Positions 1,175 to 5,301 of a stretch of 5,301 nt of DNA are shown one piece after another. Position 1 is the stretch's first letter; each line of letters starts with the position of its first letter. The stretch lies in contig PXSC01000135.1 of assembly GCA_003023535.1 (NCBI GenBank), forward strand, positions 1 through 5,301, read 5' to 3'. The DNA comes from Halobacteriales archaeon QS_9_70_65. GTDB taxonomy: Archaea; Halobacteriota; Halobacteria; Halobacteriales; Haloarculaceae. Below the pieces are notes generated by a model. It made no database searches. It had not been told where the DNA came from and saw only the letters and a program-made list of their open reading frames with translations. A program made the translations under genes and the position numbers.

Positions 1175-2137
1175 TTACTCGTCACGAGGGCTGGAAGGGT
1201 GGTAGTCGGTGTCGTACTCGCCGGGGCGGTCGTCCAGGCGGTCGGGGTTGATGCGACCGTCCAGCAGCATGAAGTCGAGGATGATGACCCGCAGCATCGC
1301 CTCGACGACGGGGACGGCCCGCGGCGGCAGCGACGGGTCGTGGCGGCCGACGACGTGGACGTCTTTCTCCTCGTCGGACTCCCAGTCGGCCGTCCGCTGC
1401 TCCTTCGGGATGGAGGTCGGCGCGTGCCAGGTCGCCTCCCCGTAGACCGGTTCGCCGGTCGTGATGCCGCCCTGGAGGCCGCCGTGGTCGTTGCCGACCG
1501 GCACCGGGTCGCCCTCCTCGGCGACCGTGTCGGGGCGGGTGTCGCCGTCCTCGAAGGTCCAGTCTTCGTTGCGCTCGGCGCCGGGCACCGAAGCTGCCGC
1601 CCGACCGCCCGCCGACCGAATCGCCGCGGGCCTGGAACTCCTCGAGCAGTTCACGCATCTCCGCGGCCGTTTCGGGGTCGGCACACCGCACCTCCGTCTC
1701 CTCGGTGTGTTCGAGCATCTCCTCGAACGTCACGTCGGGCGCCTCGACGTCGTGCAACTGGTTGACGTGGGCCTTCACCCGGACGTCGTGGTCCGACTGC
1801 TCCAGTACCTGCTTTGCGACGGCACCGGCGGCGACCCAGTTGACCGTCTCGCGGGCCGACGACCGGCCGCCGCCGCCCCAGTTGCGCGTGCCGAACTTCG
1901 CCGAGTAGGTGTAGTCGCCGTGCGACGGGCGGGGCGCCGTCACGAACGGCTCGTACTTCCCCGAACGGGCGTCCTTGTTCTGGATGACCATCCCGATCGG
2001 CGTGCCCGTCGTGTAGCCGTCGAGCGTCCCGGAGTTGATGGACACCTCGTCCGGTTCGCCCCGGGAGGTGGTGATCTGCGACTGGCCGGGCTTGCGGCGG
2101 TCCAGCTCGTGCTGGACGTCCGCCTCGTCGAGTTCAT
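1175..2137 (-). pseudogene. aroC: Chorismate synthase pseudogene, with two out-of-frame deletions
   Basis: Chorismate synthase makes chorismate from EPSP using reduced flavin, the last shikimate-pathway step. The retained middle part (one frame, about 2135-1610) reads ELDEADVQHELDRRKPGQS, SINSGTLDGYTTGTPIG, the His-bearing RPSHGDYTY and the signature GGRSSARETVNWVAAGAVA. The retained C-terminal part (another frame, about 1600-1175) reads ERNEDWTFEDG, VPVGNDHGGLQGGITTGEP, GRHDPSLPPRAVPVVEAML and YDTDYHPSSPRDE, then TAA. Missing are about 30 N-terminal residues with the essential GESHG histidine motif, and about 45-50 central residues normally lying between GDSVGG and SERNEDW. An ATGAAC at 2137-2132 fits the usual MN start but is out of frame with the middle part; that frame hits TGA at 1940-1942. 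An enzyme made from this locus would be dead. aroA lies upstream on the same strand, beyond the toxin-antitoxin pair. Confidence 0.9.
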
Positions 2138-2160
2138 CACCCGTCCCTCGGGGCGCCGAA

Positions 2161-2169
2161 GGTTTAGCC
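2161..2169 (-). promoter_or_regulatory. Surviving aroC TATA box
   Basis: On the minus strand GGCTAAACC lies 24-32 nt upstream of the ATGAAC at 2137, the spacing expected of a leaderless haloarchaeal promoter. It suggests that the original aroC promoter and start codon are still in place and that the lesion begins just after the second codon. This is inferred from spacing and composition. Confidence 0.45.
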
Positions 2170-2172
2170 TTG

Positions 2173-2249
2173 CTATCTTCGAACAGCGAGAGAACCCTGG
2201 TCTTCGGGCCAGGGGTGAATCGCGTAAGCGTCGGGGCTTTCTATCTTCG
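2173..2249 (+). repeat. 9-bp direct repeats (CTATCTTCG) flanking a UUCG hairpin segment
   Basis: CTATCTTCG occurs at 2173-2181 and again at 2241-2249, enclosing 59 bp. Within it, CCCTGGTC (2195-2202), TTCG (2203-2206) and GGCCAGGG (2207-2214) form an eight-pair stem with one G-U pair, closed by the exceptionally stable C(UUCG)G tetraloop if transcribed from the plus strand. A smaller CGC-GTAA-GCG hairpin follows at 2221-2230. The segment lies between the vapC stop and the aroC promoter and codes for nothing I recognise. It could be a scar or non-autonomous end of a hairpin-ended element such as IS200/IS605, whose right ends have this look, or simply a terminator region for vapC. No transposase remains. 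Confidence 0.35.
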
Positions 2250-2264
2250 GGGTGTCGGGCAGAA

Positions 2265-2695
2265 TTAGTTGGACGGATCGGTTGGCGTCTCCAGACGAGT
2301 GATCCTCTCGATCGCGCCGAAGTCGCCGTCGAAGGAGTACAGGTGCTCGATGTTCTCGCGTTCCATGTACGCGGCGATGGTCGCGTCACCGAACGAAAGG
2401 GATTCGTAGGTCTCGAAGAGGTCCACGGCGCGGTGGAAATCCTTCTGCGCCGAGTGAATCAGCTCGAACCCTGCCGAACTGGAGAGTCGGTCGCGGAGTC
2501 GACCGCGATGTCGTGGCGCTGCCGCTCGTGAATCCAGTTCAGAGACCCCAGCAGTACATAGTTCGTGATTCGGATGGTCGGGAGGTCGCCCCTATCGATG
2601 GCGTGGACGATGTTTTCCGCCCGTTCGTGGCGGCCGTCGGCGCTCGTATCCTTGTAATCGATGAGGACGTTGGAATCGAGGACGGCGACTGCCAT
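2265..2695 (-). pseudogene. vapC: PIN-domain (VapC-type) toxin, frameshifted and missing a catalytic acidic residue
   Basis: VapC toxins are small PIN-fold ribonucleases with a Mg-binding cluster of four acidic residues. Frame one reads MAVAVLDSNVLIDYKD, then DRGDLPTIRITNYVLLGSLN, then HERQRHDIAVDSAT, and after about 70 residues runs out of frame to a TGA at 2459-2461. In the -1 frame homology resumes at once: DRLSSSAGFELIHSAQKDFH, LFETYESLSFGDATIAAYM, NIEHLYSFDGDFGAIERIT and RLETPTDPSN, ending in TAA at 2265-2267. The junction is at about 2487-2496. The 431-nt span is one base short of a 143-residue frame, which fits a one-base deletion. D7 and the later SFGDA and YSFDGD aspartates remain, but position 50 is Gly (NYVLLGSLNW) where PIN proteins normally carry Glu. 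The start directly follows the vapB stop. A sequencing error could explain the shift but not easily the Gly as well. Confidence 0.85.
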
Positions 2696-2968
2696 TCAGG
2701 CGTCCTCCGCGAACTCCGGATCCTCTTCGCGTCCGGCGAGGTCGTGCGTTTCGAGGCCGTCACCGCCCATCGGAGCCTTCAGATCGTCACCTTCGAACGC
2801 ACCGTAGCGCTGACGGACGACTTCAACGGAGAGGTCACCCTCTTCGCCGACGTCCCAGCGCAGTTTGTCGCCAGCCTCGATGTCGAGACGTCGCCGTAGC
2901 GATGCTGGGACCGTAACCATCCCCCGGTCACTGACCTTCGTTTCCTCGGGAGCGTCTTCGGTTGTCAT
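2696..2968 (-). CDS. vapB: AbrB/SpoVT-type (VapB family) antitoxin
   Basis: A 90-residue protein with an N-terminal swapped-hairpin AbrB DNA-binding domain at about residues 9-51: TKVSDRGMVTVPASLRRRLD, then IEAGDKLRWDV and DLSVEVV. A short acidic C-terminal tail (residues 52-90) is the region that in this family binds and inhibits the partner toxin. The ATG at 2966-2968 is preferred over a longer in-frame reading because the domain normally begins within ten residues of the N-terminus, upstream sequence is not coding-like, and a TATA-like word lies about 24-31 nt upstream. Its TGA is immediately followed by the vapC ATG with no gap. Family members bind their own promoter as repressors, and an inverted repeat upstream fits that. 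The reading frame is intact although the toxin is broken, so it may survive as a stand-alone regulator. Confidence 0.85.
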   Translation of the reverse strand: MTTEDAPEETKVSDRGMVTVPASLRRRLDIEAGDKLRWDVGEEGDLSVEVVRQRYGAFEGDDLKAPMGGDGLETHDLAGREEDPEFAEDA

Positions 2969-2991
2969 GCTCGCTGATACGGGCTCTCGCA

Positions 2992-3013
2992 CGATACATG
3001 TTGCGCCACATGT
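2992..3013 (-). promoter_or_regulatory. vapBC promoter with overlapping candidate antitoxin operator
   Basis: ACATGT (2996-3001), a 6-bp spacer, and ACATGT (3008-3013) form an inverted and direct repeat, since each half is itself palindromic. The minus-strand TATA-like word ATGTATCG (2999-2992) overlaps the proximal half-site and lies 24-31 nt from the vapB ATG. Binding of the antitoxin there would block TATA-binding protein, a plausible autoregulatory layout. The repeat is seen directly; the function is inferred. Confidence 0.45.
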
Positions 3014-3081
3014 GATTCGGGACTCCAGCTCTGCGTTCCGTTCACGGCTCCGAGTCGGCGCCCTCAGTTGCACGCTCCTCG

Positions 3082-3240
3082 TCAGGCATCCCGAACGTCG
3101 ACCACTTCGACCGCCGGGGTATCCCAGCGCGCTCCTTCGTTCGCTCGCGCCGTCAGCGGTCCCACTGTGACTTCCTCCCATTCTCGACGTATCGGACCCT
3201 ATCGTCCGCGTCTATTACCGTCTGGTGTTGCCACGAGGGA
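3082..3240 (-). pseudogene. Possible C-terminal remnant of an unidentified gene
   Basis: Within the otherwise non-coding 319-nt gap, the minus strand gives the coding-like stretch EWEEVTVGPLTARANEGARW followed by DTPAVEVVDVRDA and a TGA at 3082-3084. In another frame immediately upstream, to about 3240, it reads WQHQTVIDADDRVRYVENG. Joined, they would look like the acidic, Val-rich C-terminus of a haloarchaeal protein carrying one indel near 3180; an in-frame TAG at 3199-3201 stops the last frame from extending. No start codon exists because the upstream part runs into the promoter of the next gene. I do not recognise the family, and chance is a real alternative. Confidence 0.25.
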
Positions 3241-3287: not shown

Positions 3288-4322
3288 ATGGCACGCGAGA
3301 CGGGACTCTCCTACGACGACGTGCTGCTGGTGCCGCAGCGGTCGCCGGTCGATAGCCGGGAGTCGGTCGACCTCACCACGGTACTGGCCGACGGGCTCGA
3401 GCCCTCGGTGCCGGTTCTCAGCGCCGCGATGGATACCGTCACCGAGGCGGAGTTGGCCCGGGCCGTCGCCGAGGCCGGTGGGCTCGGCGTCGTCCACCGC
3501 TTCCTGACGCCGGACCGGCAGGCCGCGATGGTCCGGTCGGTCGCCGACGACGACCACCCCGTCGCCGGCGCCGTCGGCGTCGCCGAGTCGTACGTCGATC
3601 GGGCGGCGGCGCTCGTCGAGGCCGGCACCACGATGATCGTCGTCGACGTCGCCCACGGCCACATGGAGCGGGTGCTCGAGGCCGCCGAGCGGCTGGCCGA
3701 GCGGTTCCCCGACACGCCGCTGTGTGCCGGCAACGTCGTCACGCGGGCGGCCGTCGCCGACCTCGCGGCGGTCGGCGTCGACTGCGTGAAGGTGGGTGTC
3801 GGCCCGGGGTCGCACTGCACGACCCGGGAGGTGACCGGCTTCGGCGTCCCGCAGTTCACCGCCGTCGAGCGGTGTGCGGCGGCGGCCGACGACCACGGCG
3901 TGACCGTCGTCGCCGACGGCGGCGTCCGGGCGTCCGGCGACGCGGTGAAGGCGCTGCTGGCCGGCGCCGACGCCGTCATGATGGGCGGCTTCTTCGCCGG
4001 CTGCGAGGAGGCCCCCGGCGAGGTGATCGAGGTCGACGGCGAGCGGTACAAACGCTCGCGGGGGATGTCGACGGCCGCCGCCGCCGAGGACCGCGAAGAC
4101 AAAGCGGTCGAGGTCGCCGCCGACGAGGGCGTCGAGGCCGTCACCGAGTACGCGGGGCCGGCCGGCTCCCGCATCGAGGAGTTCGCCGCCGGTATCCGCT
4201 CGGGGCTGTCCTACGCCGGCGCCGACGACCTCGCAACTGCCCGGCAGAACGCGGAGTTCGTGCGCGTGACGCCGACGACGAGGCGCCGCAACGGCGCCCA
4301 CGGCTTCGCGCGAACGGAGTGA
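3288..4322 (+). CDS. CBS-less IMP dehydrogenase/GMP reductase family enzyme
   Basis: A 344-residue cytoplasmic (beta/alpha)8-barrel enzyme of purine nucleotide interconversion. It opens with LSYDDVLLVPQRSP (7-20) and SAAMDTVTE (45-53). EAGGLGVVHRF follows and runs straight into the barrel with no CBS pair, so the protein is about 150 residues shorter than normal IMP dehydrogenase. The active-site loop GVGPGSHCTTR gives catalytic Cys177, followed by VPQFTAVERC. The phosphate-binding elements are DGGVRASGD (210-218) and MMGG (231-234), and the flap start is RYKRSRGM (253-260). The flap lacks the Arg-Tyr pair characteristic of IMP dehydrogenases, which favours GMP reductase or a separate activity, yet the Lys-containing HKHY motif of GMP reductases is also absent (VHRF here). 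I chose ATG 3288 because MARETGLSYDD matches the family N-terminus; the frame extends 21 codons upstream through the promoter. It converges on aroA. Confidence 0.88.
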   Translation: MARETGLSYDDVLLVPQRSPVDSRESVDLTTVLADGLEPSVPVLSAAMDTVTEAELARAVAEAGGLGVVHRFLTPDRQAAMVRSVADDDHPVAGAVGVAESYVDRAAALVEAGTTMIVVDVAHGHMERVLEAAERLAERFPDTPLCAGNVVTRAAVADLAAVGVDCVKVGVGPGSHCTTREVTGFGVPQFTAVERCAAAADDHGVTVVADGGVRASGDAVKALLAGADAVMMGGFFAGCEEAPGEVIEVDGERYKRSRGMSTAAAAEDREDKAVEVAADEGVEAVTEYAGPAGSRIEEFAAGIRSGLSYAGADDLATARQNAEFVRVTPTTRRRNGAHGFARTE

Positions 4323-4421: not shown

Positions 4422-4437
4422 TGAGACTTTCGTCTCA
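4422..4437 (-). terminator. GAAA-loop hairpin containing the aroA stop codon
   Basis: On the minus strand TGAGAC-GAAA-GTCTCA is a perfect six-pair stem with a GNRA-type GAAA tetraloop. Its first three bases are the TGA stop of aroA. It lies in the convergent gap between aroA and the plus-strand gene and may stabilise or end the aroA message. It is followed by AT-richer sequence (AATACCTAACC) but no clear T-run on that strand. Confidence 0.35.
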
Positions 4438-5301
4438 CGACGGCCGCTCGACGGCGGCGCCGAGCGCCGACAGCGTCTCGAAGAACGCCGGAAAGGAGAC
4501 GTCGACGTGGTCGGCGCCGACGACGGTCGTCTCGCCGTCGGCGACGACGCCGGCGACCGACAGCGCCATCACGATCCGGTGGTCGGCGTGACCCGAGACG
4601 GTCGCCCCCTCCAGGCCGCCGCCGTCGACGACGAGCTCGTCCGTCCGCTCCTCGACGTCGACGCCCATCCGCTCCAGTTCCGCCGCCATCGCGGCCACCC
4701 GGTCGGTCTCCTTTAATCGGACGTGCTCGCAGTCGGTGATGCGGGTGGTGCCGTCGGCGGCCGCCCCGAGGACGGCGATCGTCGGCAGCAGATCCGGCGT
4801 GTCGGCGACACCGACCTCGACGCCCTCCAGCGACGACGCCGCGACGCGCACCCGGCCGGCCTCGCGATTCCAGGCGACGTCGGCGCCCATCCGCCCGAGG
4901 ACGTCGACGACGACGGCGTCGCCCTGCGCGCTCGGGCGGACGCCCTCGACGACGAGGCCGTCATCGGCCGCGAGCGCCCCGACGGCGAGCAGGTACGACG
5001 TCGACGAGAAGTCCCCCGGCACGACGTAGTCGCCGCCGTCGGGGGCGTACGATTGGCCGCCGGCGACCCGGAAGCCGTCGGCGCCGGCCGCCACGCCGGA
5101 GTCGTCGCCGCCGACGGCCTCGGCGTCGACGCCGAAGTCCGCCAGCAGCTCCAACGTGACGTCGACGTACGGCGCCGACTTCAGGTCGGTCGTCAACTCC
5201 ATCTCGACGCCGCGGTCGGTCACCGCGCCGGCCATCAGCAGCGCCGTGACGTACTGCGAGGAGACGTCGCCGCGAACCGAGACCGCGTCGCCGTCGATTC
5301 C
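4435..5301 (-). CDS. aroA: 3-phosphoshikimate 1-carboxyvinyltransferase (EPSP synthase), N-terminus outside window
   Basis: EPSP synthase transfers the enolpyruvyl group of PEP to shikimate 3-phosphate, the penultimate step to chorismate. The 288 residues present are about two thirds of the usual 420-430. They begin in [20 protein letters not shown], which holds the substrate-binding SSQ(Y/F) motif, and continue with [19 protein letters not shown] and [24 protein letters not shown] follows, the second family signature with PEP-binding residues (LKETDR at 4717-4700). The end is [15 protein letters not shown] and [19 protein letters not shown]. No frameshift or missing motif is seen, and codon use is uniformly haloarchaeal. 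In many haloarchaea, as I recall, aroC follows aroA directly; here a convergent gene and a toxin-antitoxin pair lie between aroA and the aroC remnant. Confidence 0.95.

Follow-up and report, generated by a model that had tools for sequence, protein, structure and literature searches.

Gene content and aroC remnants

The window, by which we mean the whole stretch of 5,301 nt that was analysed, is haloarchaeal. On its minus strand are found a glycosyltransferase fragment (2–373), a gene resembling those for 6-pyruvoyl-tetrahydropterin synthase (PTPS-like, 370–720), aroC (1175–2137), a PIN-domain gene (2265–2695), an AbrB-type gene (2696–2968) and part of aroA (4435–5301). The plus strand carries a guaB-like gene with an IMPDH domain (3288–4322) and, between the PTPS-like gene and aroC, a hypothetical gene (768–1166) that is fragmented, its pieces being in different frames. 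Sequences related to the C-terminal part of this hypothetical gene occur in the fetched aroC loci of several haloarchaea. The partial aroA and the guaB-like gene of the window are in frame, which weighs against an assembly error as the cause of the aroC lesions described below.

The closest relatives of the window are two metagenome genomes, Halobacteriales archaeon QS_4_69_225 (genome G001, aroC locus L001) and QS_8_69_73 (genome G003, aroC locus L003). Other aroC loci discussed below are those of a Haloarculaceae MAG (L002), QS_1_69_70 (L004), QH_10_67_13 (L011) and Halophilic archaeon J07HX64 (L046).

The start codon of aroC (ATG, 2135–2137, minus strand) corresponds to the ATGAACG start of the gene in L001 to L004. 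It is preceded by a short stretch that is common to the relatives (2136–2176, 92.7% identity to L001 over 41 bp) and contains GGCTAAACC at 2161–2169, which we take to be TATA-like. The intact promoter that the initial annotation placed here is unproven; homology to L001 and L003 stops at 2176, where the PIN/AbrB pair begins. Both long remnants of aroC match the chorismate synthase family (PF01264, TIGR00033). The middle part (1609–2131), which is in a shifted frame, matches positions 56–189 of the Pfam Chorismate_synt profile (4.5e-44) and has 95.8% DNA identity to L001, and the C-terminal part (1175–1607, stop codon 1175–1177), which is read in the same frame as the original ATG, matches positions 231–327 (1.9e-22) with 93–94% identity to L001 and L003.

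Two gaps in aroC

On the minus strand, GGCTAAACC (2169–2161) is followed by 23 nt, the ATG (2137–2135), AAC and then TCGACGAGGCGGAC. With TCGACGAGG directly after ATG-AAC, the start codon runs into codon 36, and the ELDEAD segment is outside the frame of the ATG. The initial annotation had described a lesion of aroC at this site, with an ATGAAC start joined to ELDEAD in another frame, and the gene as well as the position are borne out by the minus-strand sequence and by alignment; that the C of AAC had been counted twice is trivial. The deletion of about 30 codons that was then proposed turns out to be exactly 100 bp as compared to L001 and L002, with loss of codons 3–35, including the GESHG segment, and with the expected shift of frame. 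The alignment with these two loci allows five equivalent placements of the junction, which confirms that GAAC is shared at both ends (2132–2135).

A second gap and the sequence upstream of 2176 that is not shared with L001, L002 and L003 had gone unmentioned. Relative to these same three loci, 125 bp are missing at 1607/1609, so that ~42 internal codons are gone. There are one or two equivalent placements of this junction, with at most one shared base, and it is thus without real microhomology. Because 100 + 125 = 225 bp are lost in total, the last third of aroC returns to the frame of the ATG, whereas translation of the middle part in that frame yields stop codons. As compared to other chorismate synthases, the window therefore differs by the loss of two blocks of codons and by changing frame twice, and a continuous AroC frame with an N-terminal GESHG was not found in the window sequence as given.

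It could be argued that the middle fragment is still produced from an internal GTG (2045) and retains some function, as an open frame of 287 codons starts there. This is almost certainly not the case: behind the second junction, the last ~140 codons of that frame no longer follow AroC, the Pfam match ends at residue 147, and neither GESHG nor the region of the internal IPA motif is present.

The exact GAAC at both ends of the first gap would fit a real and very recent pseudogene, in which aroC was lost by two end-joining deletions, one of them via GAAC, in an aromatic auxotroph that is fed by its community. We consider this unlikely. Microhomology end joining occurs in Haloferax, according to PMC7521656, and the first junction, with its few shared bases, resembles the microhomology-mediated end-joining deletions described there for Haloferax volcanii. 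The second junction differs in this respect, and no break-inducing agent is known here. In a simulation of random 100-bp deletions in aroC, microhomology of at least 4 bases was obtained in 1.3% of the cases, which makes GAAC mildly unusual for a single junction; since it is present at one junction of two, it is weak evidence for end joining. That two private lesions of similar size are present within one gene also speaks against a pseudogene.

DNA hairpins were considered as a cause of the gaps and rejected. Folding of the L001 stretches over the missing segments gave z values of −0.14 and −1.26, as against 0.84, −1.67 and −1.50 for three other stretches of aroC, so no special structure is indicated.

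Selection and possible strain signals in the remaining codons

The differences between the window and L001 at codon positions 1/2/3 amount to 4/1/17 and 5/2/17 for the two remnants, and those with L003 to 2/1/18 and 6/2/11. From the counts against L001 no relaxed constraint was found in the remaining aroC codons, although a very recent loss would look alike. As the differences are mainly at third positions, nothing suggests a long decay. The codon pattern shows that purifying selection has acted on aroC up to the present or almost up to it, and the heavy third-position bias argues against a pseudogene.

The middle part of aroC has 15 differences that are private to the window (against both L001 and L003), hand-picked from the difference lists. 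All but one of these (14/15) are in codons 59–69 or 189–207, adjoining the two junctions. Within the middle part, codons numbered 69 or lower and 189 or higher account for 30%, which gives a binomial P of 4e-7 with limits that were set post hoc. In our reading, this clustering points to joins between different strains, but natural recombination could equally cluster private differences. The identity to L001 across four tiles of ~130 bp in the middle part varies from 89% to 100%. Such a strain mosaic would be in line with a mixed population, in which intact and deleted alleles coexist and from which the assembler gave a composite of strains. We regard that as very improbable: neither of the gaps was seen in the four close loci that were aligned or in the best 80 of 310 candidate aroC loci, which weighs against a deleted allele in a mixed population and against a pseudogene alike.

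aroC in related genomes

AroC is encoded in one full frame in 77 of the best 80 of the 310 loci, and the three exceptions (L003, L011 and L046) are all metagenome assemblies. L001, L002 and L004 are intact at both gap sites, and L003 is intact at the second. The segment that the window lacks at the first gap is carried by L001, L002 and L004 in the alignment. At its aroC start, L003 has a private gap of 74 bp that overlaps the first gap of the window, and in L011 a different frame break is found, between codons 272 and 305; both lesions speak for assembly errors. In J07HX64 (L046:4163–6080) two partial copies of aroC are arranged in tandem, with codons 1–272 followed by 30–394; this may reflect a duplication or a further assembly error.

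Among 31 genomes around G003, aroC is full length in 28, absent in two and truncated in one, which is G003 itself. When 146 genomes of the order were sampled, an aroC match was obtained in 138; it is full length in 133 and partial or split in five (G003, G021, G037, G091 and G144). The genomes of L001 to L004 and L010 have exactly one aroC match each.

Some of these observations favour the pseudogene. The remaining eight of the 146 sampled genomes gave no aroC match, some of them perhaps merely because they are incomplete, and in G003 both aroC and aroA are broken and there is no second aroC. The lesion in aroA of QS_8_69_73 is a gap of 114 bp that is flanked by a 14-bp overlap. One could go further and envisage a Halobacteriales lineage of salt crusts that repeatedly loses the last steps of the shikimate pathway and depends on its neighbours for aromatic amino acids, with aroC lost by two end-joining deletions in the strain of the window and aroC and aroA lost independently in QS_8_69_73. 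Such a scenario is rather improbable.

Broken essential genes and gap frequencies in related assemblies

AdoMet synthetase (metK) and the isoleucyl-, valyl- and leucyl-tRNA synthetases (IleRS, ValRS and LeuRS) are encoded by essential genes. In a set of 17 genomes, 14 have a full-length metK, and in one (G156) the gene is cut short by the end of a contig. The remaining two genomes have a broken copy: in G001 it is split into two frames (G001:C11:57075–58129), and in G003 profile positions 1–18 are missing (G003:C63:33457–34584). A second copy of metK was found in neither G001 nor G003. The synthetase genes of these two nearest relatives are damaged as well (L120, L122 and L126). In G003 the frame of IleRS changes at a gap of 31 bp and that of ValRS at a gap of 26 bp, the latter gene also being divided between two contigs, and in G001 LeuRS misses ~109 residues and changes frame. 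The enzymes were identified by the NCBIfam names of intact copies (IleRS and ValRS of G001, LeuRS of G005). In each of four Haloferax isolates, three long matches cover the full PF00133 profile in one frame. RpoB (PF00562) is full length in 14 of the 17 genomes and was not found in G002, G003 and G005, perhaps due to incompleteness.

The lesions in essential genes of the relatives cannot all be real and are best read as assembly errors. Since these single-copy genes are broken in the relatives' assemblies and the gaps in aroC look alike, the latter are, by analogy, probably artefacts too, and the breakage of metK and aminoacyl-tRNA synthetases by the same class of lesion is at the same time an argument against a pseudogene.

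A similar picture is obtained from gap frequencies, for which clean one-sided gaps (at most 20 bp on the shorter side) of 40–200 bp were counted. For the G003 and G001 contigs that hold L003 and L001, which share 93.7% identity over 41,803 aligned bp, 15 such gaps were obtained, along with four longer clean gaps and five complex ones. Three comparisons between Haloferax isolates yielded two clean gaps each, in 58,007 bp (96.5% identity), 94,876 bp (96.8%) and 55,267 bp (91.8%), the third of which re-uses one contig each from the first two. The frequency for G003/G001, about one per 2.8 kb, is thus roughly 10–12 times that of the isolates. A second pair with QS/QH names, G004 and G005, has a lower frequency than G003/G001 (one gap in 6,732 bp and two in 17,500 bp), and between G001 and G002, which is from another source, there are no clean gaps of 40–200 bp in 9,164 bp and one gap of 331 bp. 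Both results weigh against an assembly error.

The 15 clean gaps between G003 and G001 span 57–181 bp, and nine of them fall within open reading frames that match a Pfam family. The genes concerned encode RPE65 (presumably a carotenoid-oxygenase-like protein), Mch, AdoMet synthetase (two gaps, one per genome), AroC, AroA, a peptidase M24, a member of the N-acetyltransferase family and a DUF5804 protein. The length is not a multiple of three in eight cases and a multiple of three in seven, so selection on the reading frame is not clearly absent.

Assembly error as the most probable explanation

Taken together, these analyses make it quite probable that the two aroC gaps in the window are local assembly errors and that aroC is intact in the cell. 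Although the gene, the position and the shape of the first lesion were correctly described, the biological inactivation of aroC deduced from them is not supported, and the alternative that had been named alongside, an error that would disappear once reads are consulted, is the better fit in view of the second gap of 125 bp, the purifying selection in the remnants and the private gaps in essential genes of relatives. The gaps resemble the local errors in metagenome scaffold assembly that PMC7111523 describes, in that short private losses without N are found at junctions of otherwise good sequence, a conserved gene is broken and the nearest assemblies of the lineage are affected alike. The defining check for such errors is read support; here the judgement is made from assembled sequence.

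The probable course of events is that the assembler left out sequence about as long as one read (100 and 125 bp) at places where it failed to join short reads of co-occurring strains cleanly, the errors being presumably due to strain variation close to the joins. The bin names of L001, L003, L004 and L010 (QS, QH) match site names in a study of Atacama salt crusts, which used 100-base paired HiSeq reads and assembly with IDBA_UD (PMC5532433). From these names we infer a link of the QS/QH genomes to that study, and the window presumably stems from data of the same kind as the assemblies of its relatives. If the gaps are indeed artefacts, such gaps and smaller frame breaks mimic pseudogenes, even of metK and aminoacyl-tRNA synthetases, and gene loss or auxotrophy should not be claimed from metagenome genomes of this kind without read support.

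The PIN/AbrB pair and the guaB-like gene

The stretch with the PIN/AbrB pair (2177–3212, ~1 kb) adjoins aroC on its upstream side and has no counterpart at this position in L001, L002 and L003. The pair has relatives on haloarchaeal plasmids, the best plasmid match of 2177–3212 being to Halobacterium noricense (82%, covering 69% of the query). The pair may have separated aroC from its regulation and could in that way have relaxed selection on the gene, which would favour a pseudogene. The frame of the PIN gene itself changes midway; intact copies exist.

The window segment 2177–4152 is missing from L001 and L003 with the same end points (2176/4153), leaving 79 bp in between, and sequence matching it is kept in L002 and L004. 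In view of the identical end points, the absence of the larger part of the guaB-like gene from L001 and L003 is a shared and probably real event, unlike the private gaps in aroC.
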